Assembly (NCBI GenBank): GCA_022843465.1 | Contig: JALHNO010000003.1 | Span: 62,001 to 126,000, forward strand | From: Pseudomonadota bacterium | GTDB lineage: Bacteria > Pseudomonadota > Gammaproteobacteria > Xanthomonadales > Ahniellaceae | Length of the DNA: 64,000 bases | Direction: 5' to 3' | In this document: positions 3,329 to 62,428 of the stretch, piece by piece | Numbering within the stretch: position 1 is the first letter of the stretch | Layout of the letters: every line of letters begins with the position of its first letter | Translations under genes and position numbers: made by a program | The notes under the pieces: generated by a model | Seen by the model: only the letters and a program-made list of their open reading frames with translations | What the model was told of the DNA's origin: nothing | Database searches by the model: none

Positions 3329-3720
3329 TCGTCGCGAGGACCATGGTCGCCATGCGGTCCACGACCTGCACCGCCGGCAGCGTTTCCATCGGGCGGACGG
3401 CGCTGACCCCGCGCATGGCGCTGTGCTGCCATCTCGTCGAATCGTTTCAGCTGCTCTGCACTGAGCAATTTCGCCAGTTCCTGGCGATTCGCCTCCTGCA
3501 GGGTCTCGCGCTGGTTGTGGTTTCCGGTCTCAACTGCGCGCATTTTCTCGCGGTGTGCGCTGAGCTGCTTGCGCACGGGTTCGCGCTGCGCTTCCGTCAA
3601 CTCCAGCATGTGGGCCAACTCGGCGAACGCCGGCGGTGGCTGGTGGCGGCCGCGTGGACCTTCAGCGCGCGCCGCCGCCACGACCAGCAGAAGAACCACC
3701 ACGAACAGGGCGCGTGTCAT
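3325..3720 (-). CDS. Spy/CpxP-like periplasmic protein (LTxxQ motif)
   Basis: A 131-residue exported protein with a signal peptide at about 1-19 (ending VAAARA). It has two LTxxQ-type motifs, LTEAQ at 41-45 and LSAEQ at 86-90, with charged helices between and after them. This is the pattern of the Spy/CpxP family of small helical periplasmic chaperones or stress sensors. The last 30 residues are rich in Gly, Arg, His and Asp. The ATG at 3718-3720 has a good GGAG site. It is divergent from the BaeS-like kinase gene; since spy is a BaeSR target in E. coli, control by the neighbouring system is likely but inferred. Confidence 0.75.
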   Translation of the reverse strand: MTRALFVVVLLLVVAAARAEGPRGRHQPPPAFAELAHMLELTEAQREPVRKQLSAHREKMRAVETGNHNQRETLQEANRQELAKLLSAEQLKRFDEMAAQRHARGQRRPPDGNAAGGAGRGPHGDHGPRDD

Positions 3721-16473: not shown

Positions 16474-16646
16474 AACGGAGCTTGCCTCGCTGCTTTTGCC
16501 CTTGATGTTGTAGAGCGGGGCTTGCCCCGCTGTTGTTGATCTTGCAATCCAAGCCAGAGCAGCGGGGCAAGCCCCGCTCTATGAAATCCCCTTTAGGGGA
16601 CAAGATCAACAGCCGATCAAGTGCAGCGGGGCAAGCCCCGCTCTAC
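16474..16646. repeat. Cluster of REP-like palindromes between epmA and glmM
   Basis: Three good copies of a palindrome with core AGCGGGGCAAGCCCCGCT lie at 16512-16533, 16557-16582 and 16622-16645, and a decayed copy (CGGAGCTTGCCTCG) at 16474-16493. The first good copy is inverted relative to the other two, so copies 1 and 2 can pair over a longer distance. A separate perfect palindrome, TCCCCTTTAGGGGA, sits at 16587-16600. Together these fill most of the 328-bp gap between two same-strand genes. No REP-associated transposase is in the window. Confidence 0.85.
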
Positions 16647-16753
16647 AAGAACTTGTGGGGACCCGGTTGATGGAAAAAACAGCGCAAGCAGACCAGGCCT
16701 CCACAAGCACGCCGTACTCGGCGATACTGCACGATATTCGAGACGGAACCACC

Positions 16754-34914: not shown

Positions 34915-35279
34915 GGAAAACTCCTTTACGGTGAAGCGCAGACGCAGGGCGTGGGTGACCCTTGGTGATGCGTGAAACGCTTCGGGGTTGGGCCTCCACG
35001 ATTCCCTGTTCCTGACCATTCAGCGCGGATCGGGATCCGGCGGAACAGCACCCCAGGAACGGGTTGCGAATCGTGTGTGGATTGGCGACATCGCCTGCCT
35101 GACGGACTTTGGTCCGAAAAAGCCGCGGAATCATAGCGGTAGCCCGGGCTCCGGGCAAGTCTGCCGGGTTCATGGCTGCCGCCGCTGCGGCGCCCATTGA
35201 ACGGACGGTCGCCGCCATCCGGCCGCTGCCGCCCGCCCTGGGGTCGTATCGCAAGGCCGTTGCCGGCTAAACTAGCGGG
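34915..35279. other. Divergent control region between rpsB and map
   Basis: A 365-bp gap between two divergent genes, which must hold promoters for both. On the minus side rpsB has a strong ribosome site and room for a leader of 200 bases or more, where S2 autoregulation would act in relatives. On the plus side a TAAACT (35268-35273) lies only seven bases before the map ATG, which would suggest a very short or absent leader if it is a -10 box. I see no convincing -35 for either and no open reading frame with family support. Confidence 0.45.
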
Positions 35280-36059
35280 ATGAAAATCTCGCTCAAGTCC
35301 CCAGCGGACATCGAAAAAATGCGTGTTGCCGGCCGCCTGGCGGCCGATGTGCTGGACATGATCGGCCAGCATGTCAAACCCGGGGTCAGTACCGAGGCCC
35401 TGGACCGGCTCTGCTACGAATACATCGTGGATGTTCAGAAGGCGATACCGGCCAATGTCGGCTACAAGGGCTTCCCCAAGACCATTTGTACCTCGGTCAA
35501 CAATGTCATCTGTCACGGCATCCCCAGTCCGGCCAAGGTGCTGAAGGATGGCGACATCGTCAATATCGACGTCACCGTCATCAAGGACGGCTGGCACGGC
35601 GATACCAGTCGCATGTACATCGCCGGACAACCCTCGGTGCTCGCCAGGCGACTGGTCGATATCACCTTCGAATCGATGTGGAAGGCGATCCGCATCGTTC
35701 GCCCGGGCATCACCCTGGGCGATATCGGGCATGCGATCCAGCAGCATGCCGAGTCAAATCGATTTTCCGTTGTGCGTGAATACTGTGGTCATGGCATTGG
35801 CCAGATCTATCATGAGGATCCGCAGATCCTGCATTATGGTCAACCCGGTACCGGCCCGCGCATTGAAGAGGGCATGACCTTCACCATCGAGCCGATGATC
35901 AATGCCGGCGCCCGGCATACCCGGCTGATGCCCGATGGCTGGACCGTCGTGACCAAGGATCATTCGCTGAGTGCTCAGTGGGAACACACGATTGCGGTGA
36001 CCCGTGACGGCTTTGAAGTGATGACCCTGGGCGCCGCTGACCGCGCGATGGCGGCGTAG
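35280..36059 (+). CDS. map: Methionine aminopeptidase, type I
   Basis: Removes the initiator Met from new proteins. It has 259 residues with the pita-bread fold: ICHGIPSPAKVLKDGDIVNIDVTVIKDGWHGDTSRMY supplies the substrate His and the first two metal Asp ligands, YCGHGIGQIYHEDPQI the His ligand, and GMTFTIEPMIN and SAQWEHTIAVT the Glu ligands. No obvious ribosome-binding site precedes the ATG. A 98-bp tandem repeat array begins 32 bp after the stop. Confidence 0.97.
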   Translation: MKISLKSPADIEKMRVAGRLAADVLDMIGQHVKPGVSTEALDRLCYEYIVDVQKAIPANVGYKGFPKTICTSVNNVICHGIPSPAKVLKDGDIVNIDVTVIKDGWHGDTSRMYIAGQPSVLARRLVDITFESMWKAIRIVRPGITLGDIGHAIQQHAESNRFSVVREYCGHGIGQIYHEDPQILHYGQPGTGPRIEEGMTFTIEPMINAGARHTRLMPDGWTVVTKDHSLSAQWEHTIAVTRDGFEVMTLGAADRAMAA

Positions 36060-36091
36060 GCGGGCATCGCACGAGTTGGGCGGACTCTGCA

Positions 36092-36797
36092 GGAGACCCG
36101 AGGCGGGCCGACCGTGGTCTTGCAGGATGGCCTCCGCGGTCGCGCCAAGCTGGCGCTCCCACACGCGGGACTGTCTCAGGATCTTCGTAGGAGGCCCGAA
36201 GCGGGCCGACCGTGGTCTTGCAGGATGTCCTCTGCGGTCGCGCCAGGCTGGCGCTCCTGCACGCGGGATTGTCTCAGGATCTTCGTGGGAGGCCCGAAGC
36301 GGGCCGACCGTGGTCTTGCAGGATGTCCTCCGCGGTCGCGCCAAGCTGGCGCTCCCACACGCGCGACGGTCTCAGGATCTTCGTAGGAGGCCCGAAGCGG
36401 GCCGACCGTGGTCTCGCAGGATGGCCTCCGCGGTCGCGCCAAGCTGGCGCTCCCACACGCGGGATTGTCTCAGGATCTTCGCAGGAGGCCCGAAGCGGGC
36501 CGACCGTGGTCTCGCAGGATGGCCACCGCGGTCGCGCCAGGCTGGCGCTCCCACACGCGGGATTGTCTCAGGATCTTCGTAGGAGGCCCGAAGCGGGCCG
36601 ACCGTGGTCTCGCCGGATGGCCACCGCGGTCGCGCCAGGCTGGCGCTCCCACACGCGGGATTGTCTCAGGATCTTCGTAGGAGGCCCGAAGCGGGCCGAC
36701 CGTGGTCTCGCCGGATGGCCTCGGCGGTCGCGCCAAGCTGGCGCTCCTACACGCGGGATGGTCTCAGCCGTGGCGCCAAGCTGGCGCTCCCACATCG
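36092..36797. repeat. Tandem array, 98-bp period, about seven copies
   Basis: The start of the unit (GGAGGCCCGAAGCGGGCC) recurs at 36190, 36288, 36386, 36484, 36582 and 36680, exactly 98 bp apart, with a slightly diverged first copy at 36092 and a truncated last one. Each unit holds two hairpins, GGCCCGAAGCGGGCC and GCGCCAAGCTGGCGC, joined by GACCGTGGTC and followed by a linker of about 29 bp (GGGATTGTCTCAGGATCTTC). It fills the gap between map and the convergent BON-domain gene. Because 98 is not a multiple of 3, long frames stay open on both strands, but these are artefacts of the repeat. Confidence 0.95.
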
Positions 36798-36871
36798 GAT
36801 AACCCAAACGCAGAGCGGGACCCCCGAAGAGGCCCCGCTCCATGCTCATCCGATCTGAGCTGTCCCACTCC

Positions 36872-37492
36872 TCAGCGTACGACCAGCTTGCTGGCGTTGA
36901 CGTTGCGCACGCCCTTGGTATTGCGGGCGATGGCGATGGCGGTATCGCGCATCTTGGCGCTCGGCACCACGCCGCTCAGCATGACCACGTTTTCCTTGGT
37001 CTCGACCGAGATATCGAGACCCTTGACGTCATTGTCGGCCAGCAACTGGGTCTTTACCTTGGTGGTGATCCAGGAGTCGTCGATCTTGTCGCCGGCCTCG
37101 TCAGCGGCTTCGCGCACCTCGCCCGAAGCGGTGGCCGTGTTGGCGTCCTGGCGACGCTCGCTGCCGGGGGCCGCGACGATCAGGTTGTTGTTCACCGAGA
37201 CCACGCCCTTCACAGTGCGGGCGATGTCGGTGGCGGCAAGCCGGTCGGCCAGGGAATCGGCGCCGCCCTCAAGGGTGACGTGGCCCGACTTGGTGGTGAC
37301 ATTGATGTCGAAGCCTTCGGTGCGCTTGTCGGCCAGCAGGGCCGTCTTCACCGAGGCGGTGATGGTGGCGTCATCGATCACGACGCCGGCGCTCCGGTTG
37401 GGCTCTTCGGCCACGACAGCAACCGGTGCCACTGCCGCAAAAGACAGGGCGATGGCAAGTGCAAGTGCAGTGCTTCTGGTGGTGTTCTTCAT
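36872..37492 (-). CDS. OsmY-like periplasmic protein with two BON domains
   Basis: A 206-residue exported protein with a signal peptide at about 1-28 (ending VAVVAEE). The two BON domains are at about 38-100 (VIDDATITASVKTALLADKR, SGHVTLEGGADSLADR) and 130-206 (IDDSWITTKVKTQLLADN, VVMLSGVVPSAKMRD), joined by an acidic linker. BON domains bind membranes or phospholipid, and OsmY-type proteins act in osmotic or envelope stress. The ATG at 37490-37492 has a GAGGAAAA site. It lies between map and glnD, which are usually adjacent in relatives, and is convergent with the 98-bp array. Confidence 0.85.
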   Translation of the reverse strand: MKNTTRSTALALAIALSFAAVAPVAVVAEEPNRSAGVVIDDATITASVKTALLADKRTEGFDINVTTKSGHVTLEGGADSLADRLAATDIARTVKGVVSVNNNLIVAAPGSERRQDANTATASGEVREAADEAGDKIDDSWITTKVKTQLLADNDVKGLDISVETKENVVMLSGVVPSAKMRDTAIAIARNTKGVRNVNASKLVVR

Positions 37493-37903
37493 GGGTTTTC
37501 CTCGCTTGATGCCTGGTGGCTTGAATGTTCTGGAACCAGCGGCTCGGGGCTGCTGGTTCCGGCTGCCCTTCCACGCACCGGAATGGGAACGGGTGGCTGC
37601 GGGGTCCATTACTCATGTTTCATGCCAAGCTGCTGGGCGAGCGTAAGGTATTGAATATAAACGACTGTTATGCGCGTCCAGGGGCTGGATCGGGGCGCGG
37701 ATGCATGCAGATGGCATGATTCCAGCGCGCCGACCCCGGCAATTTGCACGAGGGCGCGTGGTCTTGGCATCCGTCCGCCTGCTGCGATCGGGCGCCGCGG
37801 TCCTGACTTCCCGTGGATACTTTCCACCATAAAACTTGCTGTAGTCTCGGGCAGTAACGCGGCGCGCCGCGTGCGATCGTTCGACACCGAGCCGGGCGTA
37901 CCG
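37493..37903. promoter_or_regulatory. Divergent control region between the BON-domain gene and glnD, with a strong inverted repeat
   Basis: A 411-bp gap between divergent genes. At 37532-37540 and 37552-37560 there is a perfect 9-bp inverted repeat (GGAACCAGC / GCTGGTTCC) around an 11-base spacer. It lies 40-70 bp upstream of the BON gene start, so it could be an operator or a leader hairpin. A GGATACTTTCCACC stretch and a TGTAGTCT lie nearer glnD but I cannot assign a clear promoter. No coding frame with family support was found. Confidence 0.5.
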
Positions 37904-40522
37904 ATGAGCAGCATTCCAGCCGAAACCAGCACGCCACAGGCCTTCGATACTTCGGGCTGGCGCGAGCGGCTGCGTCGGGCCCAGTTCGAGGACGAGACCG
38001 GATTTGCCATGGGCATCCCGATTCTCGATCTGCTGCATGCCCGCTGCGCGCGGGTCGAGCACGCCTGCATCGCAGCGTTTCAACACGTATTCACGGATTC
38101 GACCGGGATTGCCCTGATTGCCACCGGCGGTTTTGGCCGTGGCGAATTGTTTCCGCAATCCGATGTCGACCTGCTGTTTCTGATTACCGACCAGCATGAC
38201 GTCCGGCTCAAATCCGGAGTCGAGCGTCTGCTCGGCCTGCTCTGGAACATCGGCCTGCAGGCCAGTCATGTAACCCGCACCGTGGCCCAGTGCGGCGAGG
38301 AGTCCGAGTCCGATCTGGCCTCGGCGACCGCGCTGTTCGAGGCGCGCCAGCTCAGCGGTGATGCCGGCCTGTTCGCCGACATGCTGGTGGCGATCAGTCC
38401 CGAGCGGGTCTGGGATGGCGCGCGTTTTCTGCACGCCAAGCGCGATGAACTGCGCGCGCGCCATCTGCGCTTCAACGACACCGCGTTCAATCTGGAGCCG
38501 AACGTAAAGGAAGGCCCCGGCGGACTACGCGATCTGCATGCCCTGATCTGGGTGGCCGGTCGTGCCTTTGGACTGCCGCAGATCGCGCAGTGGCCGGCTG
38601 CCGATCTGTGTTCCGCTGCCGACGCCCAGCGCCTGCTCGATGCGCAGGAATTGCTGAGTCGGGTGCGCTATGGGCTGCATCGCAGTACCCAGCGCCGCGA
38701 GGAGCGGCTGCTGTTCGATCAGCAGCGTGCCCTGGCGAGGATGTTCGAGCCGACCCTGGGCGAGCGTGAGAACGTGGTCGTCGAGCGTTTCATGCAGAGT
38801 TTCTTCCGGGCCGCCGGCAATGTGCGGCGCGTCGGCGAGCGGCTCTGGGCGGCCTGGCTGGATCGGGTCGAGGGCCGTCAGGCCGGTCCGCAAGTTCCGC
38901 TCGAAGGCGATTTCATTGCGCGCGGGCAGCGCCTTGGGCTGGATCGCGGCGAGCTCGATCCGATCGCTGCCATCCAGGCATTCGAGATGTTGTCGCTGCA
39001 CCCGGAACTTATCGCGATTGAACCGCTGCTGGAGGCACGTATCTCGGCGCTGTGCCTGGAAACAGACACTGCGGCCTGGCGCGATCCGCGGATCGCTGCC
39101 GGCTTCCTGCGCATCCTGCGCGATCCCGGCGATGTGATGAAGGTGATCGATCGCATGGTCGACAGCGGCGTGCTCGGTCGTATCGTGCCCGCCTTCGAGC
39201 GCGTGACCGGGCGCATGCAGTACGACATGTTCCATGTCTACACGGTCGACCAGCACACCCTGTTCGTCATGCAGAAACTGCGCAGCTTTGCCGACCCGGC
39301 GCGCGCAAGTTCGCATCCGCTGGCGCACGAGATCTACGCGCGTCTGCGCAAACCCGAGTTGCTGCTGCTGGCGGGTCTGTTCCATGACATCGCAAAGGGG
39401 CGTGGCGGCGATCATTCCGAACTGGGTGAGGTCGACGCGCGCGTCTTCTGTGAGTGGCTCGGCCTGCCTGAGATGGACACCGACCTAGTGGCCTGGCTGG
39501 TGCGCCAGCATCTGACCATGTCGGTCACCGCACAGAAGAAGGACATCAGCGATCCCGAGATCGTTCATCAGTTTGCCGCTGTGGTGGAGGATTGGGAGCG
39601 GCTGGACTATCTCTATCTGCTTACCGTCGCCGACATCTTCGCGACCAGTCCCAAGCTGTGGAATTCCTGGAAGGGACAACTGCTGGCGACCCTGCATCAG
39701 GCCACGCGCTATGCCCTGCGGCGCGGGCTCGAACATCCGGTGCATGCCCGCGAGCGGATTCTGGAAGCGCAGTTCGGTGCGCTGACCAGTCTGGCGCAGT
39801 CCGGATACGACGCACTCAGGGTGCGCGCGCTGTGGGACGAATATCCCGAGGAGAATTTCCTGCGCTTCACGCCCGGCCAGCTGGCCTGGCAGACCGCTGC
39901 AATCCTTGATCACGGCGACAGCAGTGAACCGCTGGTCACCGCGCGTGCTGCCGGCGAACGCGGTAGTACCGAGGTATTCGTTTACTCGGTGGATCGCGAT
40001 GGACTGTTCGCCACCATCACCGCGGTGCTCGATCGCTTCCAGTTGACGGTACAGGAAGCCCGCATCGCGACCTCGCGGCAGGGACATGTGCTGGATGCCT
40101 TCCAGGTGCTCGATGCCGACCAGAAGCAGGTCAGCGATCCGCAGCGACTGCAGGAACTGGTCGAGCGCCTGCGCGCCGAACTGCTGAAGCCGGAGTTGAA
40201 CCTGACGCCGGCGCGGCGCGCCTGGACACGCCAGCAGAAACACTTTCATGTGCCACTGCGTCTTGAATTCCAGAGTGACGACAAGCGCGGTCGCACCGGA
40301 CTGGCCCTGGTCTGCTCGGATCGCCCCGGCCTGCTTGCCCATGTCACCCAGGCGTTTCGCGCCTGCGGTGTCCGGGTCCACGATGCCCGCATTGCGACCT
40401 TCGGCGAGCGCGTCGAGGATCTGTTCGAACTGACCGATGAGAACGATCAGCGCCTGGATGATGTCCAGATGCGCGCCCTGCGCGCCACCTTGACGCACGA
40501 GCTGGAAATTCCGCGGCGCTGA
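37904..40522 (+). CDS. glnD: Bifunctional PII uridylyltransferase / uridylyl-removing enzyme
   Basis: Senses glutamine and modifies PII proteins. It has 872 residues: a nucleotidyltransferase domain with GGFGRGELFPQSDVD (75-89), a helical region with NVKEGPGGLRDLH, an HD domain with LFHDIAKGRGGDHSELG (uridylyl removal), and two C-terminal ACT domains (VFVYSVDRDGLFATITAVLDR and LALVCSDRPGLLAHVTQAFRACG). The ATG at 37904 gives MSSIPAETSTPQAF just ahead of the conserved part; the frame is open further upstream but unlike the family. Confidence 0.95.
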   Translation: MSSIPAETSTPQAFDTSGWRERLRRAQFEDETGFAMGIPILDLLHARCARVEHACIAAFQHVFTDSTGIALIATGGFGRGELFPQSDVDLLFLITDQHDVRLKSGVERLLGLLWNIGLQASHVTRTVAQCGEESESDLASATALFEARQLSGDAGLFADMLVAISPERVWDGARFLHAKRDELRARHLRFNDTAFNLEPNVKEGPGGLRDLHALIWVAGRAFGLPQIAQWPAADLCSAADAQRLLDAQELLSRVRYGLHRSTQRREERLLFDQQRALARMFEPTLGERENVVVERFMQSFFRAAGNVRRVGERLWAAWLDRVEGRQAGPQVPLEGDFIARGQRLGLDRGELDPIAAIQAFEMLSLHPELIAIEPLLEARISALCLETDTAAWRDPRIAAGFLRILRDPGDVMKVIDRMVDSGVLGRIVPAFERVTGRMQYDMFHVYTVDQHTLFVMQKLRSFADPARASSHPLAHEIYARLRKPELLLLAGLFHDIAKGRGGDHSELGEVDARVFCEWLGLPEMDTDLVAWLVRQHLTMSVTAQKKDISDPEIVHQFAAVVEDWERLDYLYLLTVADIFATSPKLWNSWKGQLLATLHQATRYALRRGLEHPVHARERILEAQFGALTSLAQSGYDALRVRALWDEYPEENFLRFTPGQLAWQTAAILDHGDSSEPLVTARAAGERGSTEVFVYSVDRDGLFATITAVLDRFQLTVQEARIATSRQGHVLDAFQVLDADQKQVSDPQRLQELVERLRAELLKPELNLTPARRAWTRQQKHFHVPLRLEFQSDDKRGRTGLALVCSDRPGLLAHVTQAFRACGVRVHDARIATFGERVEDLFELTDENDQRLDDVQMRALRATLTHELEIPRR

Positions 40523-40540
40523 AACGGTGGCGGCGGTGAC

Positions 40541-41032
40541 TTACATCCACAGCACCGGATTGCGCCACCAGAGGCTGGCGTTGAGCATTGCGGCAAAGCT
40601 CACCCAGAGCAGGTAGGGCAGCATCAGCCCCGCTGCCAGTGGCCGGATGCGCCAGAACAACCACATCGTGATGACGATAAGTACCCACATCACCAGGATG
40701 TTCAGCAGGGCGAGGGCTCCCAGTTGCCAGGCGAAGAACAGCCAGCTCCAGAGCGCATTGAAGGCCAGTTGCGCGACGAACAGCCCGAGCGGCAATGCAC
40801 CGCCGGTGTAGCCGCGCGCTCGCCAGATCAGCCAGGCTGCCACGGCCTGCATCGTGTAGAGCAGGGTCCAGACCGGACCGAACAGCCAGGCCGGCGGTGC
40901 CCAAGCTGGCTGATCGAGAACCGGGTACAGCTTGGGTGCATCCGCCGAGCCCAGTCCGCCGAGGGCGGCCGCTGCGAAACAGAGCAGCAACCAGCCTGCC
41001 AGTGCCGCCCATTGTTGCCACTTGCTCGTCAT
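40541..41032 (-). CDS. tspO: TspO/MBR-family membrane protein
   Basis: A 163-residue protein with five helices. The hallmark residues are in [50 protein letters not shown] and [23 protein letters not shown], the Trp/Pro-rich pattern of TspO. Members bind porphyrins and other tetrapyrroles, and some degrade protoporphyrin under light or stress. It is on the opposite strand between glnD and dapD and is convergent with glnD, so it has its own transcript. Confidence 0.9.
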
Positions 41033-41152
41033 GTCTCGGTCTCCGGATGGGATGCGTGATGGTCAGGGATTGCGGGCGGGCCGCCTGTGCTACAGCACAC
41101 ATTGGAATATCGCAGGGCGAATGTACAGGCGACGGCAACGGGCGTAGGCATC

Positions 41153-41158
41153 TACAAT
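41153..41158 (+). promoter_or_regulatory. Possible -10 box upstream of dapD
   Basis: TACAAT lies 23 bases before the dapD ATG in the short divergent gap with tspO. It matches a sigma-70 -10 box well, but I find no good -35 at the right distance, so this is a weak call. Confidence 0.3.
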
Positions 41159-41181
41159 TGCTGCTTTGGTCGGAGTGCACC

Positions 41182-42000
41182 ATGAGTGAGCTGCAGGGAA
41201 TCATTGACCGCGCCTGGGAGCGTCGCGCCGAGTTGTCGGACGCGCCTATCGAGGCCTCACTGCGCGAATCGGTCAACACGGTGCTCGCCGATCTGGAATC
41301 GGGCAAACGTCGCGTGGCCGAGAAGATCGATGGCGTCTGGCAGACGCATCAGTGGATCAAGAAGGCGGTGCTGCTGTCGTTTCGAATCGAGGGCAATCGG
41401 CTGATGGCGGGTTCGCCTGCGCCCTATTACGACAAGGTCGGGCTGCGCTTTGAAGGCTTCGACGAATCCGAGTTCAGCGATGCCGGCGCGCGTATCGTGC
41501 CTGGTGCCATCGTGCGCCGTGGCGCGCATGTGGCGCGCGACGTGGTGCTGATGCCGAGCTTCGTCAATATCGGTGCCCATGTCGGTACCGGCACCATGGT
41601 GGATACCTGGGCCACAGTCGGTTCCTGTGCCCAGATCGGTGCCCATGTGCATCTCTCCGGCGGCGTCGGCATCGGCGGTGTGCTTGAGCCCCTGCAGGCG
41701 AATCCCACGATCATCGAGGACAACTGCTTCATCGGCGCGCGTTCGGAAGTGGTCGAGGGCGTGATCGTCGAGGCCGGCAGTGTCATCGGCATGGGCGTCT
41801 TTCTCGGCCAGTCCACTCGCATCTATCACCGCGAGCACGACGAGATCAGCTACGGGCGGATCCCCGCCGGCAGTGTCGTGGTCGCCGGTTCCCTGCCATC
41901 CGCCGAGGGGCGTTGCAGTCTCTATTGTGCGGTGATCGTCAAGCAGGTCGATGAGCGCACGCGCAGCAAGACCAGCATCAACGAACTGTTGCGGATGTAG
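41182..42000 (+). CDS. dapD: 2,3,4,5-tetrahydropyridine-2,6-dicarboxylate N-succinyltransferase
   Basis: A lysine/diaminopimelate pathway enzyme using succinyl-CoA. It has 272 residues: an N-terminal helical domain, then a left-handed beta-helix with hexapeptide repeats ([51 protein letters not shown]), [29 protein letters not shown] and the CoA-site C-terminal region. GGAG precedes the ATG. It forms a set with dapE, two genes downstream. Confidence 0.96.
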
Positions 42001-42058
42001 GCGGCCGCCGTATCGTGTCTATCGAAGCCTGTCGTTTCCCTGAGTCCAGTATCCCATC

Positions 42059-42424
42059 ATGACCAGCACGCCCATCCTGTACGGACTCGACAACTGCGAT
42101 ACCTGCAGGAAGGCGCGCAAGTGGCTGCAGCAGGCCGGCATCGCGCACGAATTCATCGACTACCGCAAGACGCCGATTGCCGGGTCGATGTTGCGTGACT
42201 GGGGCGCGCGACTGGGTTGGCAGAATCTGATCAATCGCAGCGGTACGACCTGGCGTGCCCTGCTGCCGAACCGCAAGAATCCGCAGAGCGATCCCGAGCA
42301 TGTTCTGCTGGTGCGCGAGAATCCCAGCCTGGTGCGGCGGCCGGTGATGCTCATCGGAGATGAAATCCATCTCGGCTTCAGTCACGGCATGTACGAAAAA
42401 ATCTTTGCAGGTGCGACACCATGA
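42059..42424 (+). CDS. ArsC/Spx-family thioredoxin-fold protein
   Basis: A 121-residue protein with the start ILYGLDNCDTCRKARKWLQ (CxxC at 13-16) and DYRKTPI, like the YffB branch of the ArsC family. It lacks the motifs of true arsenate reductases that act with glutaredoxin, so arsenate reduction should not be assumed. It sits between dapD and dapE with a 4-bp overlap to dapE, an arrangement common in this order, but its role there is not known. Confidence 0.85.
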   Translation: MTSTPILYGLDNCDTCRKARKWLQQAGIAHEFIDYRKTPIAGSMLRDWGARLGWQNLINRSGTTWRALLPNRKNPQSDPEHVLLVRENPSLVRRPVMLIGDEIHLGFSHGMYEKIFAGATP

Positions 42425-43569
42425 ACAGCGAAGTGCTCGATCTGACCATCGAACTCTGTCGGCGCAAGTCGCTGACGCCCAATGATGCCGGCTGCCAGGC
42501 GTTGATCGCCGAACGCCTTCAGTCGTGCGGATTCAGCGTCGAGCATCTGCGCTTCGGCGATGTCGACAACCTCTGGGCCTGGCATGGCAGCGCCGGCAAG
42601 GTGTTCACCTTTCTCGGACATACCGATGTGGTTCCGGTCGGCGATTTGCCGGCCTGGTCATCACCACCGTTCGAGCCCAGCGTGCGCGACGGCGTGCTGT
42701 ACGCACGCGGCGCTGCCGACATGAAGGCCGGTGTTGCCGCGATGGTGCTCGCACTCGAACGTTTTGTCGCGCGGGCACCGCAGCACGCGGGTGTCGTCGG
42801 TCTGCTGCTCACCAGCGACGAGGAAGGCATTGCGGTGGACGGCATCAAGCGTGTCGCCGAGACTTTTGGGCAGCGCGGTCAGCGCATCGACTATTGCCTG
42901 GTGGGTGAACCCTCTTCAGAGCAAAAGCTGGGCGATCGCATCCGCATCGGCCGCCGCGGTTCCCTGCACGGACACCTCAAGGTGCGCGGCGTGCAGGGTC
43001 ATGTTGCGTTCCCGGAGAAGGCGCTCAATCCGATCCATCATGCGCTGCCGGCCCTGCACGAACTCGTCGGCATCCGCTGGGACGAGGGCGACGACCACTT
43101 TCCGGCGACTTCGTTCCAGATTTCCAATGCGCATGCCGGTACCGGTGCCACCAATGTGATCCCGGCCGATTTCCAGATCGATTTCAATTTCCGCTACGGC
43201 GCGAGTTCCCGGGTCGAGGACCTGATGCGCCGCGTCGAAACGGTGCTGGCCCATCACAATCTCGACTACCGCATCCGCTGGGTGCATTCCGGCGCGCCCT
43301 TCGTCACCACCCAGGGTGCGTTGCGCGATGCGGTTACCGCCGCCATCAAGTCGCAGTGCCAGATCACTCCGCTCGCCGACACCGGTGGCGGCACCTCGGA
43401 CGGACGATTCATCGCCCCGATGGGTGCCGAAGTCGTCGAGTTCGGTCCGGTCAACGACAGCATCCACAAGGTCGATGAAAACGTCCGCATCGCCGATCTG
43501 GACATCCTCTGCGACGCCTATGGCAAGGTGCTCGATCAACTCAATGTCGCTGGAGCCGATACGCCGTAG
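42421..43569 (+). CDS. dapE: Succinyl-diaminopimelate desuccinylase
   Basis: A zinc amidohydrolase that removes succinate in DAP/lysine synthesis. It has 382 residues of the M20 family: FTFLGHTDVVPVGD (first His ligand), ARGAADMKAGVAAMV (bridging Asp), LLTSDEEGIAVDG (catalytic Glu), CLVGEPSS, and SDGRFIAPMGAEVVEFGP near the end, with a dimerization domain in the middle. The ATG overlaps the ArsC-like gene stop (ATGA). A palindromic repeat begins just after its stop. Confidence 0.96.
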   Translation: MNSEVLDLTIELCRRKSLTPNDAGCQALIAERLQSCGFSVEHLRFGDVDNLWAWHGSAGKVFTFLGHTDVVPVGDLPAWSSPPFEPSVRDGVLYARGAADMKAGVAAMVLALERFVARAPQHAGVVGLLLTSDEEGIAVDGIKRVAETFGQRGQRIDYCLVGEPSSEQKLGDRIRIGRRGSLHGHLKVRGVQGHVAFPEKALNPIHHALPALHELVGIRWDEGDDHFPATSFQISNAHAGTGATNVIPADFQIDFNFRYGASSRVEDLMRRVETVLAHHNLDYRIRWVHSGAPFVTTQGALRDAVTAAIKSQCQITPLADTGGGTSDGRFIAPMGAEVVEFGPVNDSIHKVDENVRIADLDILCDAYGKVLDQLNVAGADTP

Positions 43570-43573
43570 CGAT

Positions 43574-43670
43574 GCAGGGCGCAATATCATTGCGCCGGAT
43601 TGAACGTAACGCAGGCGCCCGGCTTGCCGCACAATGCGGCGCAATGCGATCCAGTTATTGCGCGCTACCC
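43574..43670. repeat. Dispersed palindromic element, copy 1
   Basis: Begins GCAGGGCGCAATATCATTGC and runs to GTTATTGCGCGCTACC. It shares the GGCGCAAT-ATC-ATTGCGCC palindrome and the following GGATT with copies at 44393 and 51228. It covers the end of the convergent membrane-protein gene, whose stop codon is inside it. Confidence 0.75.
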
Positions 43671-44239
43671 CCGATCTCGTCAGACCGGGTTGTTCGATTT
43701 TCTTCGTTCCTCATCCGTACGAAGGTCGCTACCGCAAAGATCAGCTCGATGCCCGCGCCGGTGAGCGCGCTGAGCGCCACCGGAGACCGGTTCAATGCCA
43801 GCGCCAGACCTGCTGCGCACAGCGTCGCGCCGAACAACCAGTAGATGCGCAGGCCGTACAGAGTCTGGAACGTCAGGTAACGGCCACCAATCACCAGCAG
43901 CATCGCCGGAAAGAACCACTCCAGGCGCAGGATGTGCATCGCGAATGCGATGGCGATGCCCGCGAACATCCACAGGGTGCTCTCGATGGCGAGCAGGGCG
44001 AGCGGATTGCCCTTGCTGTGGGCGCCGCTGCGCCCCAGCAGCCTGGAGCCCAGCATCGCGAGTGGATGGATCAAGGCGCCGCCAATCAGCAGACTGAGAA
44101 TCGCGACCATGTCCGAGGCAAGGATTGAAGCCAGTCCTGCGGTCAGCCAGACCGAGCCCGACGCCAGAATGCCGGGAGCGCCGCCATAGTAGCCACGGCG
44201 CATATCGGCTTGCGCCTGGGCAAGGGTGAGTTGGGTCAT
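43655..44239 (-). CDS. Polytopic membrane protein of unknown function
   Basis: A 194-residue protein whose conserved-looking start is MRRGYYGGAPGILASGSVWLTAGL, followed by about six hydrophobic helices to residue 175 and a short charged tail. The YYGGAPG pattern belongs to a family of uncharacterised bacterial membrane proteins; I cannot assign a function. The ATG at 44237-44239 is preferred over an earlier in-frame start at 44323. The last codons and the stop overlap a dispersed palindromic repeat, so the C-terminus may have been reshaped by its insertion. Confidence 0.65.
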   Translation of the reverse strand: MTQLTLAQAQADMRRGYYGGAPGILASGSVWLTAGLASILASDMVAILSLLIGGALIHPLAMLGSRLLGRSGAHSKGNPLALLAIESTLWMFAGIAIAFAMHILRLEWFFPAMLLVIGGRYLTFQTLYGLRIYWLFGATLCAAGLALALNRSPVALSALTGAGIELIFAVATFVRMRNEENRTTRSDEIGGSAQ

Positions 44240-44392
44240 CGGCGGCACTCGGTCTTTGTGGGCACGCCAGTGTAATCCAGTGACCGGGCGTGCAAAAGAC
44301 TCGCTTCCGATGGGTCTCGACACCTGCCTGCAGGGTGACGTTCAGCAAGGCGCGTAGCAGCGTCCTGCATCCTGCGACGGCTCCGCTTCCGC

Positions 44393-44470
44393 AGGGCGCA
44401 ATATCATTGCGCCGGATTCAATCCTCGACAGACTTCCATCGCGTCGCACAATGCGGCGTTGTGCCCGATA
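44393..44470. repeat. Dispersed palindromic element, copy 2
   Basis: AGGGCGCAATATCATTGCGC followed by CGGATTCA matches copies 1 and 3. It is followed by TCGCACAATGCGGCGTTGTGCCC, as in the tail of copy 1. It lies between two minus-strand genes. Confidence 0.7.
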
Positions 44471-44510
44471 GGTCGCGCGCGGCGGGACGCTGCAGCTGAT
44501 CGGGAACGGA

Positions 44511-44876
44511 TCAGTCGGGACACTGCAATTGCGCGAAGCTCACCTTGGCGGATTCGCGCGCTCCGGAAGTGATCAGTTGCAGGCATTCGCCGGATGATCG
44601 GGCAAAGAAGAACAGACAGTTGTCCAGACCTGTGCCGGAGCACTGCTGTACCTCGCTGAACCCGAGTTCGTGGAAGCAGCCAGCGCTGGGCGATTCGGTG
44701 ATCTGGAAGCGTCGCGGTCGCCAGCCATCGTCGAGCACCAGCTTTCTGGCCTTCGGATAGGGTAAATCCAGCACGCGCGTCAGGATCGGCAACGGCGGCT
44801 CCGGGCTCGACAGCATCGGCTCGATCGAGCACCCGGCCAGTGTGGCAATCAGGACAAAGGGGCGTAGGAACTTCAT
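44511..44876 (-). CDS. Small lipoprotein of unknown function
   Basis: A 121-residue protein with a lipoprotein signal ending LIATLAGC (Cys18). The mature part has several further Cys (CFHELG, QQCSGTG, DNCLFFF, GECLQL, and QCPD at the end), suggesting disulfides in the periplasm. I recognise no family. The ATG at 44874-44876 has AGGACA upstream and places the signal peptide at the start. Confidence 0.6.
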   Translation of the reverse strand: MKFLRPFVLIATLAGCSIEPMLSSPEPPLPILTRVLDLPYPKARKLVLDDGWRPRRFQITESPSAGCFHELGFSEVQQCSGTGLDNCLFFFARSSGECLQLITSGARESAKVSFAQLQCPD

Positions 44877-45043
44877 CTTGTGTCCTGCCTTGTGTGGCCG
44901 ACGGCCGTGCATGAAATGTGCTCCGCCATGCACAAATAAACAAGGGCCTGGTCGAAGCAATCGCCGCTGGATTGCCGTCGGTCGGTCACGGCCTCAGCTG
45001 CGCCGCTGCAGGCTAGGCGGAATCGACAGGGCAGGGCCGATCA

Positions 45044-45562
45044 TCAGTCCATCCAGTGCGCGAACGCCGCAGGTTCCGACTCCAGATCCGGTACCTGGTC
45101 GAGCACAGACTTCGGACCGCCGTAGCGCGCGTACAGCGCGACGTGCGCGGCCAGCGACATCGGCCCATCGCGGTGATAGTAGTCGCTGACCCAGGACAGC
45201 AGGAACGCCAGTCGCTGGTCCTGATCGGACTTGGAGGCGTACTTGTGCGGTTCCCAGGGACGCTTGCGGCAATGGGCGAGACACGCCGCCTCACCCGGGT
45301 TCAGGAACACCAGGCGCGGCGCGTAGGTCAGCGACGCGGCGATCAGATTCGCATAACAACCTTCGATCAGCCAAGACGGGTTCTGCGCGCAGAAGGCATC
45401 GACATCCTGTTCCGCTGCCGCAGGCGGCCGCGCCACACCTGCCTGCTGCGGCTCCCAGGCCACGGTGTCCAGGTCGAGCACGGGCGCACCCGAACGTGTG
45501 GCCAGCCAGCGCGCCAGCGTGGACTTTCCCGAGCCCGAATTTCCGAGGATGGCGATGCGCAT
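45044..45562 (-). CDS. P-loop NTPase, FlaR/adenylate-kinase-like
   Basis: A 172-residue protein starting MRIAILGNSGSGKSTLARWL, with the Walker A motif at about 7-15. LDLDTVAW follows, then WLIEGCYANL, the pattern of the small kinase-like family that includes FlaR. The second half has RKRPWEPHKYASKSDQD. The substrate is unknown. It lies 46 bp downstream of the GrpB-family gene on the same strand, so the two may be an operon. Confidence 0.7.
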   Translation of the reverse strand: MRIAILGNSGSGKSTLARWLATRSGAPVLDLDTVAWEPQQAGVARPPAAAEQDVDAFCAQNPSWLIEGCYANLIAASLTYAPRLVFLNPGEAACLAHCRKRPWEPHKYASKSDQDQRLAFLLSWVSDYYHRDGPMSLAAHVALYARYGGPKSVLDQVPDLESEPAAFAHWMD

Positions 45563-45608
45563 GTTGATTCCGTTCCAGGGGCAGTGATTCAGGTCAACAA
45601 ACCTGACG

Positions 45609-46136
45609 TCAGACGGGCTTTGCGGCCGCCGATCCGAGCGACGCCAGCACCGCCTCGATGAAGGGCCCCTTCGCCGCGGTGTAGGCGGACTTGTCACCGG
45701 CAAAGCGCTCGGCGAGTTCCAGTTTTAATGTCTGGTACTCGCTGCGGAGCTGCACATCGGAGCGCAGCAGATCGCGGAAGGCGAGTTGTGCGCGCCAGAA
45801 TTCCGAGTGCAGTTCGACAGCATGAAGATGAATGCGCGGCATGGTCGTGGCGGGCCGGACAAAATAGCGGCGCATCGGAAGTTCGGATTCATACCTGGAG
45901 ACATAGTCGTACCCGAGCGCGCCGATTGCTTCGATGCGCGACTCCACATCACCCAGGCTCGGCGCCCCCAGCAACACATCGATGACCGGCTTGGCCACCA
46001 GTCCTGGCACCGAGGTGCTGCCGATGTGCTCGATCTCCACGGGCAACGCTACGAATACGGTACGCAGCTCGTGGCGAAGTTCCTGGTAATGCCGAGGCCA
46101 GCTTGCGGAGTAGGGGCTGAGCAGTGACTTGGACAT
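45609..46136 (-). CDS. GrpB-family (UPF0157) nucleotidyltransferase-like protein
   Basis: A 175-residue protein with SPYSASWPRHYQELRHEL at the start and VEIEHIGSTSVPGLVAKPVIDVLLG, the GrpB signature (GST then a KPxIDxxxG block). This fold belongs to the polymerase-beta nucleotidyltransferase group; in some bacteria it is fused to dephospho-CoA kinase. Here a separate P-loop kinase-like gene follows. Biological role unknown. Confidence 0.85.
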   Translation of the reverse strand: MSKSLLSPYSASWPRHYQELRHELRTVFVALPVEIEHIGSTSVPGLVAKPVIDVLLGAPSLGDVESRIEAIGALGYDYVSRYESELPMRRYFVRPATTMPRIHLHAVELHSEFWRAQLAFRDLLRSDVQLRSEYQTLKLELAERFAGDKSAYTAAKGPFIEAVLASLGSAAAKPV

Positions 46137-46157
46137 GGTCCTGGCCGAGTACATCGA

Positions 46158-46565
46158 TCAGCTGGAGGCAGGCGCGTCGAACGCGCGCAGCTGGATGATA
46201 TTGCCTTCGACATCGCAGGCATTGCGTATGCTGAAGCCCGGGCCATCCCAGACCGAGCCGAACAGGCGGCCACCCAGCTCGGCGGCAAGGGCTTCAGCGC
46301 CAGAAAGACTCGGCACTGTGAAGTAGGGCTTGATGGCCTGCTCCTCGCGCAGCTCGGGTGGCACCGCAATCACGATGCCTTCGGCGATGTGGGGCGGAAT
46401 CGCATGAAGGATCAGCTGGCAATCTGCTGATTCAAGAATATGATGTTCGCCATCGGACAGCAGTACGCGCATTCCGAGCAGGCGCTGATAGAACGTGGAC
46501 ATAGGTTGCAGATTCTTGGCGTAGATCAGCACTCCGGCACGGCTGGGGCCCGGCTTCGGACTCAT
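46158..46565 (-). CDS. VOC-superfamily protein
   Basis: A 135-residue glyoxalase/bleomycin-resistance-fold protein: LIYAKNLQPMSTFYQRLLGMRV at the start of the first half, LQLILHAIP-like strand text, and the second half ending FSIRNACDVEGNIIQLRAF. The usual metal ligands are only partly clear, so enzymatic activity is uncertain. The ATG at 46563-46565 fits the family start. It lies 21 bp from the GrpB-family gene on the same strand. Confidence 0.8.
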   Translation of the reverse strand: MSPKPGPSRAGVLIYAKNLQPMSTFYQRLLGMRVLLSDGEHHILESADCQLILHAIPPHIAEGIVIAVPPELREEQAIKPYFTVPSLSGAEALAAELGGRLFGSVWDGPGFSIRNACDVEGNIIQLRAFDAPASS

Positions 46566-46992
46566 GGGGAGGGCTTCCTGTATTCGGGAGGGGGCAGATA
46601 GTGCAGAGGCACGCCGAAGCGCCGCGTGCAGATCGGCATTGTAGGCAAACTTGCCCGTGAAGTGCTCAACCGTACGCGAGGCAGTTGCCGACACAAGCGG
46701 TCTCACGCTCGAGCCTTGGCAACAACCACGCCACTTGCATCATCCGAGGTCCGATGACTGCAGAGAACAGGCCGATTCAGGCGTGCGGATGGTCGGCCGT
46801 CCACTGGGGGCAGGCGCAAACGGCCTCGGGTGAACGCCTGTCCGAGCCCGCATTGCTCCGTCGCCCTGCGCCAGGATTCGGGATCGCCGACTGAGCCGCG
46901 ATGAGCAGTCCGAATCCGGCGAGCACGCGAATGATGGGGCTGGTTCAATGCCGCCCACAACGACTCATCGCAGCCCGCATCAGGAGACCTCA
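46566..46992. other. Non-coding gap between divergent VOC and DUF1203 genes
   Basis: A 427-bp stretch with the promoters of two divergent genes. I see short open frames in several registers but none with a ribosome site or family likeness, no palindromic repeat of the kinds found nearby, and no tRNA-like fold. A GGAGA site ahead of 46993 belongs to the DUF1203 gene. Confidence 0.4.
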
Positions 46993-47457
46993 ATGAAACT
47001 TGCTGTTCGCGGTATTCCCACCAATGCGGTGGAGCGACTTCGCGCTGGCGGCCTGGACGCCAATGGACAGCCAGCGCTGGTTGCGATCGCTGAAGGCTCG
47101 CGCAATCCCTGTCGTCATTGTCTGCAATTGATCGCCGAGGGCGAGGAAATGCTGGTGCTCAGTTACCGTCCGTTTGCGCACGCACAGCCCTACGCAGAGA
47201 CCGGTCCGATCTTTCTGCACAGGCAGGATTGCCCGCGTTACGAGGCATCGCAACTGCCTGTGTGGATCGCGCAGATGACGCCGGCCATCATCCGCGGCTA
47301 TGACCGCAACGACTGGATCAAATACGAGACGGGCGCGGTGGTCTCCGGTAACGAACTGGGCGTCGAGAGCGAGAAAATCCTGGCTGATGGCACGACGGCG
47401 TACGTGCACATCCGATCACGGTTCAACTGCTTCCAGTGCCGAGTCGAACGCGCGTAG
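46993..47457 (+). CDS. DUF1203-family protein
   Basis: A 154-residue protein with the family features NPCRHCLQLIAEGEEMLVLSY (CxxC at about 38-41), PYAETGPIFLH, and a CFQCRVER ending. Cys and His clusters could bind a metal. Function unknown. A CAGGAGACC site precedes the ATG. Its TAG stop directly abuts the 74-bp tandem array; the first base of the array is the last base of the stop codon. Confidence 0.8.
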   Translation: MKLAVRGIPTNAVERLRAGGLDANGQPALVAIAEGSRNPCRHCLQLIAEGEEMLVLSYRPFAHAQPYAETGPIFLHRQDCPRYEASQLPVWIAQMTPAIIRGYDRNDWIKYETGAVVSGNELGVESEKILADGTTAYVHIRSRFNCFQCRVERA

Positions 47458-47678
47458 GAGCGCCCTGGGGGCGCGACCGTTGAGGCAAGCTTGCGGGACC
47501 ACGGTCGGCGCGCCTCGGGCCTCCCACGCAGGAGCGTCCGAGGGGCGCGACCGTTGAGGCAAACCTGCGGGACCACGGTCGGCCCGCCTCGGGCCTCCCA
47601 CGCAGGAGCGCCCTGGGGGCGCGACCGTTGAGGCAAGCTTGCGGGACCACGGTCGGCCCGCTTCGGGCCTCCCACGTC
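47457..47678. repeat. Tandem array, 74-bp period, three copies
   Basis: Units start with GGAGCG at 47457, 47531 and 47605, exactly 74 bp apart. Each holds GGAGCGCCCTGGGGGCGCGA and ACCACGGTCGGCCCGC followed by TTCGGGCCTCCCACG. The reverse complement of a unit aligns over about 69 bp with the 98-bp unit at 36.1-36.8 kb, so the two arrays share one element in opposite orientation. It lies between the DUF1203 gene and a convergent serine hydrolase gene. Confidence 0.93.
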
Positions 47679-47737: not shown

Positions 47738-48877
47738 TCAATCGTTTCGGGCTTTCAGGTCCCATTGTCTGTGCAGAAAATTGGCAATGGCGAAGCAGCC
47801 AGGAATGTCCTTGTTGGACAGCACGATGATGGTCTCGGCGGTCTCGGGGTAGGTGCGGACATCGGTACAGATACCATCTGCGCTGCCGCCATGGCCCCAG
47901 CGGAATTCTCGCGAGGTGTAGCCCGGTCCGTAGCCTGTGGCGAAAAATCCCAGGCCCATGAACTCGTGGTGCGGCCTGATCGCATCAGCGAACAGTGGCG
48001 CGGAAACCAGTGCTCCGCTGCGCAGCGATTCGACGAAGCGCAACATGTCTGCTGCCGTCGACACCTGGCCGCCAGCCGGGAAGCCGCGTGCGGGCAGGGT
48101 CTCGCAATTGCGCAAGGACTTGTCATTCACCTGTGCGTAGCCGGCGGCGATGTCAGCAGCCGGATCCGTGCAATCGGCAAATCCGGTTCGGGTCATTCCG
48201 GCAGGCTCAAACACGTGCTGTTTCAGGTAGGACTCGAAATCCTTGCCGGAAAGCACTTCGACCATTCGACCCAGTACAACGAAGCTGAAGTTCCCGTACT
48301 CCTGTTGTGCGCCAGGTTCGAACGCGGGCGCACGGTCGTGGTGCAGGGCCAGCATTTGGGCGACGCTGCGCGCGCTCGTCCGGTTGCGGGCGTTCTCCAG
48401 CCCAAAGAGGTCGATATCGCCGGCGCCGGAAGTATGGGTCAGCAGATGGCGCACCGTGACCTTGGCTGCAAACTCCTTGTTCGGGTAGTCCGCCAGCACT
48501 TCGCCGACGGTGGTGTCGAGCGTCAGCTTGCCGCGCGCAATCTGTTGCAGGACTGCGGTGCTGGTGAACATCTTGCCGGCTGAGGCCAGGTTGAAGCGGG
48601 TCCCGGTGTCGACGACCGCTTCTTCCTCTGCGTCGATCAATCCGTAGGCTTTCTCGAAAATCACCTTGCCTTCGCTGGCAACCAGTACCACACCGGAGAA
48701 CCGCTCTGCCTCGACAAGTCCAAGCGCGAATCCGTCCAGTGCTGCCAGTTCGACGGCGCTGGCGACGTACTTCTTGCTCGCTACCGGGTGATCGGCGGCA
48801 AGTGCGATGGGCGTGATGATGAATACCGCGATGCAGATCGCCAGTCCCCAGAACAGCATAGACACAGACGATTTCAT
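47738..48877 (-). CDS. Serine hydrolase, class C beta-lactamase/esterase family, exported
   Basis: A 379-residue protein with a signal peptide at about 1-27 (ending PIALA). The SxxK motif is at Ser99-Lys102 (NLASAGKMF), YxN at 194-196 (YGNFS), and HGG takes the KTG place in RWGHGGSADG. The three motifs are intact, so it should be active on esters or peptides; family members range from D-alanyl peptidases to esterases, and resistance to beta-lactams should not be assumed. It is convergent with the 74-bp array. Confidence 0.85.
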   Translation of the reverse strand: MKSSVSMLFWGLAICIAVFIITPIALAADHPVASKKYVASAVELAALDGFALGLVEAERFSGVVLVASEGKVIFEKAYGLIDAEEEAVVDTGTRFNLASAGKMFTSTAVLQQIARGKLTLDTTVGEVLADYPNKEFAAKVTVRHLLTHTSGAGDIDLFGLENARNRTSARSVAQMLALHHDRAPAFEPGAQQEYGNFSFVVLGRMVEVLSGKDFESYLKQHVFEPAGMTRTGFADCTDPAADIAAGYAQVNDKSLRNCETLPARGFPAGGQVSTAADMLRFVESLRSGALVSAPLFADAIRPHHEFMGLGFFATGYGPGYTSREFRWGHGGSADGICTDVRTYPETAETIIVLSNKDIPGCFAIANFLHRQWDLKARND

Positions 48878-61737: not shown

Positions 61738-61750
61738 GTGTGCTGTAGGG

Positions 61751-62428
61751 CTCGCCATGGAGGGTCGCGCTCCTGCGCGGCCGCTTTGGCTTTCGGTGAA
61801 GATTCCGATAGCCCATTCACCTGGCCTGTAGACCGACCAAGCGCCGCGGGAGCAGCGCCCTCCAGCGTGACCGCTCGCAATGGAGGGTCGCGCTCCCGCG
61901 CGACCGCTTTGGCTATCGGTGAAAATTCCCATAGCCCCTTCGCCTGGCCCGTAGACCGACCAGGCGCCGCAGGAGCAGCGCCCTCCAACAGCCCATCAGG
62001 CGCCGCAGGAGCAGCGCCCTCCTACAGCCCATCAGGCGCCGCAGGAGCAGCGCCCTCCAGCGTGACCGCTCGCAATGGAGGGCCGCGCTCCTGCGCGACC
62101 GCTTTGGCTTTCGGTGAGGATTCCCATAGCCCGTTCGCCTGGCCCGTAGACCGACCAGGCGCCGCAGGAGCAGCGCCCTCCTACAGCCCATCAGGCGCCG
62201 CAGGAGCAGCGCCCTCCTACAGCCCATCAGGCGCCGCAGGAGCAGCGCCCTTCAGCGTGACCGCTCGCCATGGAGGGTCGCGCTCCTGCGCGGCCGCTTT
62301 GGCTTTCGGTGCGGATTCCCATAGCCCCTTCGCCTGGCCCGTAGACCGACCAGGCGCCGCAGAAGCAGCGCCCTCCAACAGCCCATCAGGCGCCGCGGGA
62401 CACGCGCTTCTGCGCGACCGCTCGGCAG
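61751..62428. repeat. Nested tandem array: 87-bp core plus variable runs of 36-bp units
   Basis: The core beginning CTCGC(C/A)ATGGAGGG starts at 61751, 61874, 62069 and 62264. The spacings are 123, 195 and 195 bp. These equal 87 bp of core plus one, three and three copies of a 36-bp unit, CAGGCGCCGCAGGAGCAGCG followed by CCCTCCTACAGCCCAT. The fourth block has one full and one broken 36-bp unit. The core has the hairpin GGTCGCGCTCCTGCGCGACC; the 36-bp unit has GGCGC-GCGCC arms. It fills the gap between hutG and the convergent parE. Confidence 0.95.

Follow-up and report, generated by a model that had tools for sequence, protein, structure and literature searches.

We describe two tandem repeat arrays, with units of 98 bp and 74 bp, in a 64,000-nt stretch of DNA (hereafter the window; contig JALHNO010000003.1, positions 62,001 to 126,000), which is part of contig 3 of the 5.18-Mb genome of a gammaproteobacterium of the Ahniellaceae. 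Both arrays consist of the same 74-nt module: the 98-bp unit is this module plus a 24-nt linker, and the 74-bp unit is the same module on the other strand without the linker. In the module, two different repetitive extragenic palindromes (REPs), tagged by GTAG or GTGG, are joined head to head across a spacer of about 22 nt; it is thus a REP doublet forming hairpins (REPIN) or a heterodimeric bacterial interspersed mosaic element (BIME). This one known element accounts for both arrays and for many other repeat blocks of the genome. Very probably, a single REPIN was inserted at each site and was then locally duplicated in tandem along with a little flanking DNA. The arrays are laid out as follows (window positions):

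36089..36750, + strand: 98-bp tandem array of seven 74-nt modules (starts at 36089, 36187, 36285, 36383, 36481, 36579 and 36677) with six 24-nt linkers between them, from the sequence, Tandem Repeats Finder (TRF) and alignments
36383..36408, + strand: left REP arm of the reference module (GTAGGAG, hairpin GCCCG-AAG-CGGGC, CGACCG)
36409..36430, + strand: inter-REP spacer of the reference module, 22 nt
36431..36456, + strand: right, inverted REP arm of the reference module (CGGTCG, hairpin CGCCA-AGC-TGGCG, CTCCCAC)
36457..36480, + strand: example of the 24-nt linker, ACGCGGGATTGTCTCAGGATCTTC
36751..36793, + strand: ragged 3' edge of the 98-bp array, with a shortened linker (36751-36767) and a fused half module, the right REP arm (36768-36793), read from the sequence and a TRF row at 36709-36794
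47454..47675, - strand: 74-bp tandem array of three head-to-tail modules without linker (47454-47527, 47528-47601 and 47602-47675)
47454..47457, + strand: GTAG at the edge of the 74-bp array, whose TAG is the stop codon of a DUF1203 gene

TRF reported 6.9 copies with 94% matches for the 98-bp array (36091-36767) and 3.0 copies with 91% matches for the 74-bp array (47456-47676), and Rfam gave nothing within either array at the gathering score. An earlier note on this DNA had taken the two units for one element in opposite orientation, alike over about 69 bases, with an added linker of about 29 bp in the longer form. The reverse complement of one 74-bp unit aligned to two adjacent 98-bp units with a local score of 77, which was reached by none of 1000 dinucleotide shuffles (mean 16.6, maximum 32). 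The forward strand of the 74-bp unit scored only 24, equalled by 32 of 1000 shuffles, and thus the opposite orientation proposed in the note is correct. The likeness was confirmed as well, albeit over 74 nt, and the linker is present with a length of 24 nt. In a multiple alignment of all units, the seven plus three units align across the whole 74 nt with 51 invariant columns. The likeness also goes beyond GC-rich palindromes, since the consensuses of the two arrays agree at 16 of the 22 positions of the inter-REP spacer, a number reached by none of 20,000 spacer shuffles. A covariance model built from 39 modules, some from the window arrays, had at least 150 matches in the genome with E values of 1.7e-11 or better. 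Although the genome is rich in other palindromic repeats, the shuffles and the model matches refute a chance likeness between such palindromes, to which we assign practically no probability.

The module reads GTRGGAG - hairpin GCCCG/CGGGC - CGACCG - spacer - CGGTCG - hairpin CGCCN/NGGCG - CTCCYAC. It thus combines two inverted REPs that can fold as a unit with a spacer of conserved length, which was 22 nt long in 99 of the 171 modules used and 18 nt long in 49. The spacer and divergence analyses excluded 15 of the 186 modules parsed in the genome, which contained N or had an odd length, as well as linkers of at least 46 nt and arrays in which fewer than four modules were usable. Among the 183 modules free of N, the left end carries GTAG in 77 and GTGG in 96, the right end GTAG in 42 and GTGG in 117, and at least one GTAG is found in 115. 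GTAG at both ends is rare (4 of the 183 modules and none of 27 cluster consensuses), a suggestive deficit with p = 0.057 at the cluster level, where the clusters are not independent.

According to structure modelling, a single-stranded module can fold as a four-way junction made up of an outer stem (GTRGGAG/CTCCYAC), the two hairpins and an inner stem (CGACCG/CGGTCG). In an alignment of 39 distinct modules of the genome, 97.2% of the cells are in standard pairs under this fold, as compared to 37-42% with a slid partner. Cells in which both sides are changed number 25, against 13.3 in shuffles (0 of 500 as high). For the innermost pair of hairpin 2, 17 modules have G-C, 14 have C-G and 5 have A-U, while 3 are unpaired there. 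When both strands of each of two modules were folded as DNA, the four-way form was predicted for all four; in three of these strands, the three outermost pairs are open. Three results speak against a foldable pair. The z-scores of the DNA folds are modest (-0.7 to -2.5 for the four strands), the predicted RNA fold is four-way in only one of the four strands and, across the 39 modules, neither the number of doubly changed pairs (2) nor that of pair types (8) exceeds the shuffles, so that covariation supports mainly the innermost pair of hairpin 2.

The 98-bp unit had 233 BLAST matches in the genome. From the stretches fetched around the matches listed, we parsed at least 186 modules in at least 28 clusters, both counts being lower bounds. 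Twenty-five clusters hold 2 to 23 modules and together contain 183 of the 186. Most of the 28 clusters lie between predicted genes, as expected of short (20-40 bp), mostly intergenic palindromes of the REP type; predicted open reading frames overlap five of them, some probably through overlong starts. The direction of the modules is uniform within each of the 25 multi-module clusters and differs from site to site, so the opposite orientation of the window arrays carries no special meaning. Nor are these two arrays a special pair. They are two of 28 clusters, and their consensuses are less similar to each other (identity 0.797) than to the best array elsewhere (0.878 for the 98-bp and 0.851 for the 74-bp array), which excludes them as sister arrays. 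A CRISPR array was likewise ruled out, because the linkers within one array are alike (mean identity 0.85) and not unique spacers. The covariance model found matches in 5 of 30 other genomes, the congener not among them. The places found by the model were clustered in 2 of 39 cases in the relative G003 and in 6 of 23 in G004, and arrays were seen there too (L181). We do not use this contrast with the 183 of 186 modules as evidence, as the model was trained on the present genome and misses diverged copies in the relatives.

The linkers are informative as to how the arrays arose. For their comparison, linkers with N, longer than 60 nt or with GGAG after the tenth base were left out, and array L046 was thereby left with two unrepresentative linkers. 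The linker of the 98-bp array has an 18-nt core that is complete only within this array; allowing up to three mismatches, this core occurs at nine places in the genome, namely six in the array itself and three elsewhere, each with three mismatches. In other arrays the linkers differ, being typically 12-44 nt long, or are missing. Over the 20 arrays with linkers, the mean identity is the 0.85 given above within arrays and 0.22 between arrays; the 20 arrays fall into 15 linker groups, and all 11 similar pairs lie within two of these. The linker is thus ruled out as a part of the element. In consequence, the one-element interpretation of the earlier note stands insofar as both arrays are built from one small palindromic REP-type element, but the linker is neither a part nor a variant of it. 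As a separate observation, the inter-REP spacer and the linker are alike in the 98-bp array, both containing GTCTC..AGGAT; the linker might therefore be a decayed spacer and not plain flank.

The spacers give a similar picture. There are 99 distinct ones, of which only six recur in different clusters (with the singleton L058 treated as a cluster), and these six are confined to the two linker groups and L058. Spacer variants are thus nearly all private to their array, as expected from one founder per site. A mix of 70- and 74-nt modules in array L048 led us to consider module exchange between arrays genome-wide, but this was not supported, since the shared spacers stay within the two linker groups and L058 and a four-gamete count gave only three sets in all, in 2 of 19 arrays.

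From these data we propose the following course of events. A REP-associated tyrosine transposase (RAYT), an HUH transposase acting on single strands, would have set one REPIN at each intergenic site. As the anatomy of the units suggests, this REPIN would then have been duplicated in tandem through slippage or unequal crossing-over, perhaps aided by the hairpins. The duplicated stretch would have included no flank in the 74-bp array, 24 nt of it in the 98-bp array and typically 12-44 nt in others. The linker would accordingly represent captured flanking DNA of the founder REPIN. Thereafter, the copy number would have shifted and the copies would have been partly homogenised within each array. 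In line with this, a linker-like stretch above background was found beyond the outer modules in 14 of the 20 arrays, which in some of the 14 reflects truncated outer modules.

Several observations do not fit this course of events easily. In the other 6 of the 20 arrays, the linker is not above background beside the outer modules. Furthermore, five arrays have a 12-nt linker in common; they occupy four genomic locations, with about 2.4 kb between two of the arrays. The second linker group consists of two neighbouring arrays on contig 23. Two members of the 12-nt group (L043 and L051) and the singleton L058 have flanking sequence in common, so some of the spread of this group seems to have occurred as a larger composite repeat. 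Finally, a search of 41 genomes for the BON-domain gene next to the 98-bp array (listed below) found it, at the cut-off used, in just the own genome and one congener (45% identity), which left no unexpanded or empty site for comparison; in-place duplication is thus inferred. The 12-nt group shows that module and linker can travel jointly and raises the alternative that the linker belongs to the mobile unit. In that case, a 98-bp element and its 74-bp derivative (or a 74-bp element and its 98-bp derivative) would each have moved as a whole, and the arrays would have formed from units already linked. However, six of the nine places of the 98-bp linker core are in its own array and the other three are at three mismatches, the number of linker groups and the low identity between arrays point the other way, and the common flanks of L043, L051 and L058 indicate a larger repeat. 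We therefore regard this alternative as very improbable and retain duplication in place.

The earlier note had suggested looking for a RAYT gene near single copies of the element. Transposase genes adjoining the same REPs do exist on contig 36 and, in pieces, on contigs 35 and 44. Matches to the Y1 transposase family number 16 in the genome; the 15 stretches (4.5-13 kb) holding them were scanned for REP half-sites, which turned up in two only, on contigs 36 and 35. The contig-36 transposase is intact (283 aa). One REP lies some 110 bp downstream of it, and there are two others at a distance of about 2.3 kb. For this protein, 80 relatives with 45-55% identity were kept, which are mostly from Proteobacteria by record title, and it may serve the REP family described here. 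A longer dispersed repeat (GGCGACCGCARCTCAAGCCRGTGCGCCGACCACCC...) ending in half of the module REP also adjoins this gene and occurs again about 2 kb off (L070:1060-1145 and 3180-3370).

On contig 35, a RAYT piece of 108 aa retains the HUH region. The RAYT of a family relative, used as query, matched the corresponding C-terminal piece at the end of contig 44 (residues 108-148, 66% identity); the remaining hits of this query in the genome, at 27-38% identity, are to different genes. Both pieces, each at a contig end, have the module REP next to them, and a 14-nt inverted repeat is present at the two breaks. Based on the matching halves and this inverted repeat, the simplest reading is that the pieces are one RAYT gene with a REP on both sides, which appears to be split by an insertion sequence situated between the two contig ends, with the tyrosine region cut off from the HUH part; we take the catalytic tyrosine to lie in the ARYxxANP stretch. 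Since the gene appears to be split, dispersal of the REPs may have stopped. A search of 30 other genomes gave matches to genes resembling the split RAYT in 10. GTAG-type inverted pairs were recognised by eye near many of the 13 relatives' loci whose flanks were printed (14 asked), and the module model matched 4 of 23 relatives' RAYT loci at E <= 0.001.

These genes bear on a further alternative, namely that the RAYT itself makes the arrays through circular or rolling single-strand intermediates and not by recombination or slippage. The 74-bp array, in which modules follow each other without linker, is what joined ends would give. On the other hand, most arrays have linkers of their own, and a circle consisting only of the REPIN would not acquire these; moreover, the RAYT with a REP on both sides appears to be interrupted, although the interruption may be recent and another transposase could serve. 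We consider construction by the RAYT unlikely and favour duplication of inserted REPINs in place. If the RAYT is truly interrupted, the genome lets one ask whether arrays grow without transposase. A speculative and rather improbable reading is that a REPIN family whose transposase was cut by an insertion sequence persists via local tandem amplification alone, with a private array per site, and that the foldable arms, and not the spacer or linker, are held by selection or gene conversion. A narrow literature search (REPIN, RAYT, orphan) revealed no apparent treatment of arrays after loss of the RAYT, which is not proof of absence.

In order to describe how the parts of the unit vary, we determined the mean pairwise difference in the 19 arrays with at least four usable modules. 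It amounts to 3.4% for the left arm, 7.7% for the right arm, 15.9% for the spacer and 10.5% for the linker, values to be read with the caveat that modules with badly altered arms would escape the search. The REP arms may be under selection or conversion. As to the surroundings, 11 of the 21 clusters that could be classified lie between convergent genes, 8 between genes of the same direction and 2 between divergent genes, 7 of the 28 being unclassified; this is based on our own simple codon-usage gene caller, with the 38 gaps of the window (7 convergent) as reference. The TAG of the tag at an array edge serves as stop codon at six gene ends in 5 of the 28 clusters, the DUF1203 gene of the window among them. 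The genes beside the two window arrays are:

35280..36059, + strand: M24 metallopeptidase gene, presumably of the methionine aminopeptidase type, upstream of the 98-bp array
36872..37609, - strand: protein with two BON-domain matches, downstream of the 98-bp array and convergent with the peptidase gene
46948..47457, + strand: DUF1203 protein gene, upstream of the 74-bp array
47738..48877, - strand: serine beta-lactamase-fold hydrolase (PF00144), downstream of the 74-bp array, convergent

In Escherichia coli, BIMEs are bound by gyrase, integration host factor or DNA polymerase I. It is conceivable, though rather doubtful, that selection maintains the arrays because they act as transcription terminators, mRNA ends or topoisomerase sites, with a functional copy number. 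The share of convergent gene pairs at the clusters (11 of 21, against 7 of 38 window gaps; p = 0.009, the clusters not being fully independent) would agree with this, as would the left arm: it is more uniform than the linker in 14 of 17 arrays (p = 0.013), and in 18 of 19 its variation stays below that of the spacer. Within the window's own 98-bp array, however, arm and linker diverge equally (0.051 and 0.050), and a place between gene ends is also expected from harmless insertion. Since the window arrays lie between convergent genes, the likeliest cellular role, if there is any, would by analogy with the REP literature be that of RNA or DNA hairpins at 3' ends (transcript ends, supercoiling). 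Both the location between convergent genes and the TAG stop from a GTAG end are already reported for GTAG REPs in the available text of PMC3733652.

The arrays thus belong to an already described kind of REP growth and are ordinary in outline. In Stenotrophomonas maltophilia, as far as the accessible part of PMC2613905 describes it, monomers and dimers of the GTAG-ended SMAG palindromes recur in tandem with flanking DNA, and their copy number varies between strains. The 103-bp unit of locus XII, made up of a 72-bp SMAG dimer and 31 bp of flank, is close to the 98-bp unit of the window, which likewise consists of a REP dimer and a locus-specific stretch that would earlier have been flank. The SMAG consensus, GTAGTGCCGGCCGCTGGCCGGCA, differs from that of the module; moreover, 183 of the 186 modules parsed here are clustered, and the GTGG tag is commoner than GTAG. 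According to excerpts of Di Nocera et al. 2013 (PMC3733652), clusters of GTAG dimers recur with flanking DNA of variable length. By that description, the module resembles the GTAG superfamily in carrying the GTAG tag, where present, on the outside (head-head), in being a heterodimer, in its convergent genes and TAG stops and in its variable-flank clusters.

REPINs, in the sections seen of Bertels and Rainey 2011 (PMC3116915), are inverted REP doublets foldable as a unit that form ordered tandem clusters including flanking sequence and have a RAYT beside the same REPs, all of which applies here too. In strain SBW25, as reported in the same sections, REPINs are mostly singlets and the largest ordered cluster has four REPINs, whereas clusters hold up to 23 modules in the present genome. 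The BIMEs of E. coli, as partially consulted in PMC8266576, combine a REP and an inverted REP of different kinds, are joined by linkers and occur often in consecutive tandem copies, with TnpAREP treated as to mechanism; the likeness to our module is one of description. What the present genome offers is many private arrays, most with their own captured flank, which form a natural series on the change from REPIN to array and on the constancy of the arms.

Several other repeats and features were noticed. An Rfam match to t44 RNA (58.4 bits) lies at 34987-35097 on the - strand; it points away from the peptidase reading frame, whose start is about 180 bp distant. The window also holds a tandem array at 61750-62400 with periods of 123, 195 and 36 bp and another REP type (GCGCCGCAGGAGCAGCGCCCTCC...). 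Over pieces, it is 68-94% alike to repeats that flank another RAYT-like gene (L077 on contig 16, an open frame of 182 aa), and judging from these sequences a second, apparently intact RAYT/REP system is likely in this genome. A third RAYT/REP-like pair is found at about 31.8 kb of contig 28 (L079), where a RAYT-like gene, whose predicted frame extends back into the repeats, lies amid many copies of TAGGGCATCTCTGCGAGATGCCGTC. The loci L065, L072-L076 and L078 hold a family of IS200-like transposases, several copies of which are shortened or broken; their printed flanks contain GCCCCGAAGGGGC and CAGGGCGTTGCCCTGG palindromes. At 16508-16648 of the window there are three copies, in both directions, of the inverted repeat AGCGGGGC(AA/TT)GCCCCGCT, a sequence that recurs near the IS200-like genes of L072 and L073. 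Three copies of a 38-nt palindromic repeat, 79-100% alike and with a core near GGCGCAATATCATTGCGCC, are located at 43573, 44390 and 51227 and are probably one more dispersed family.

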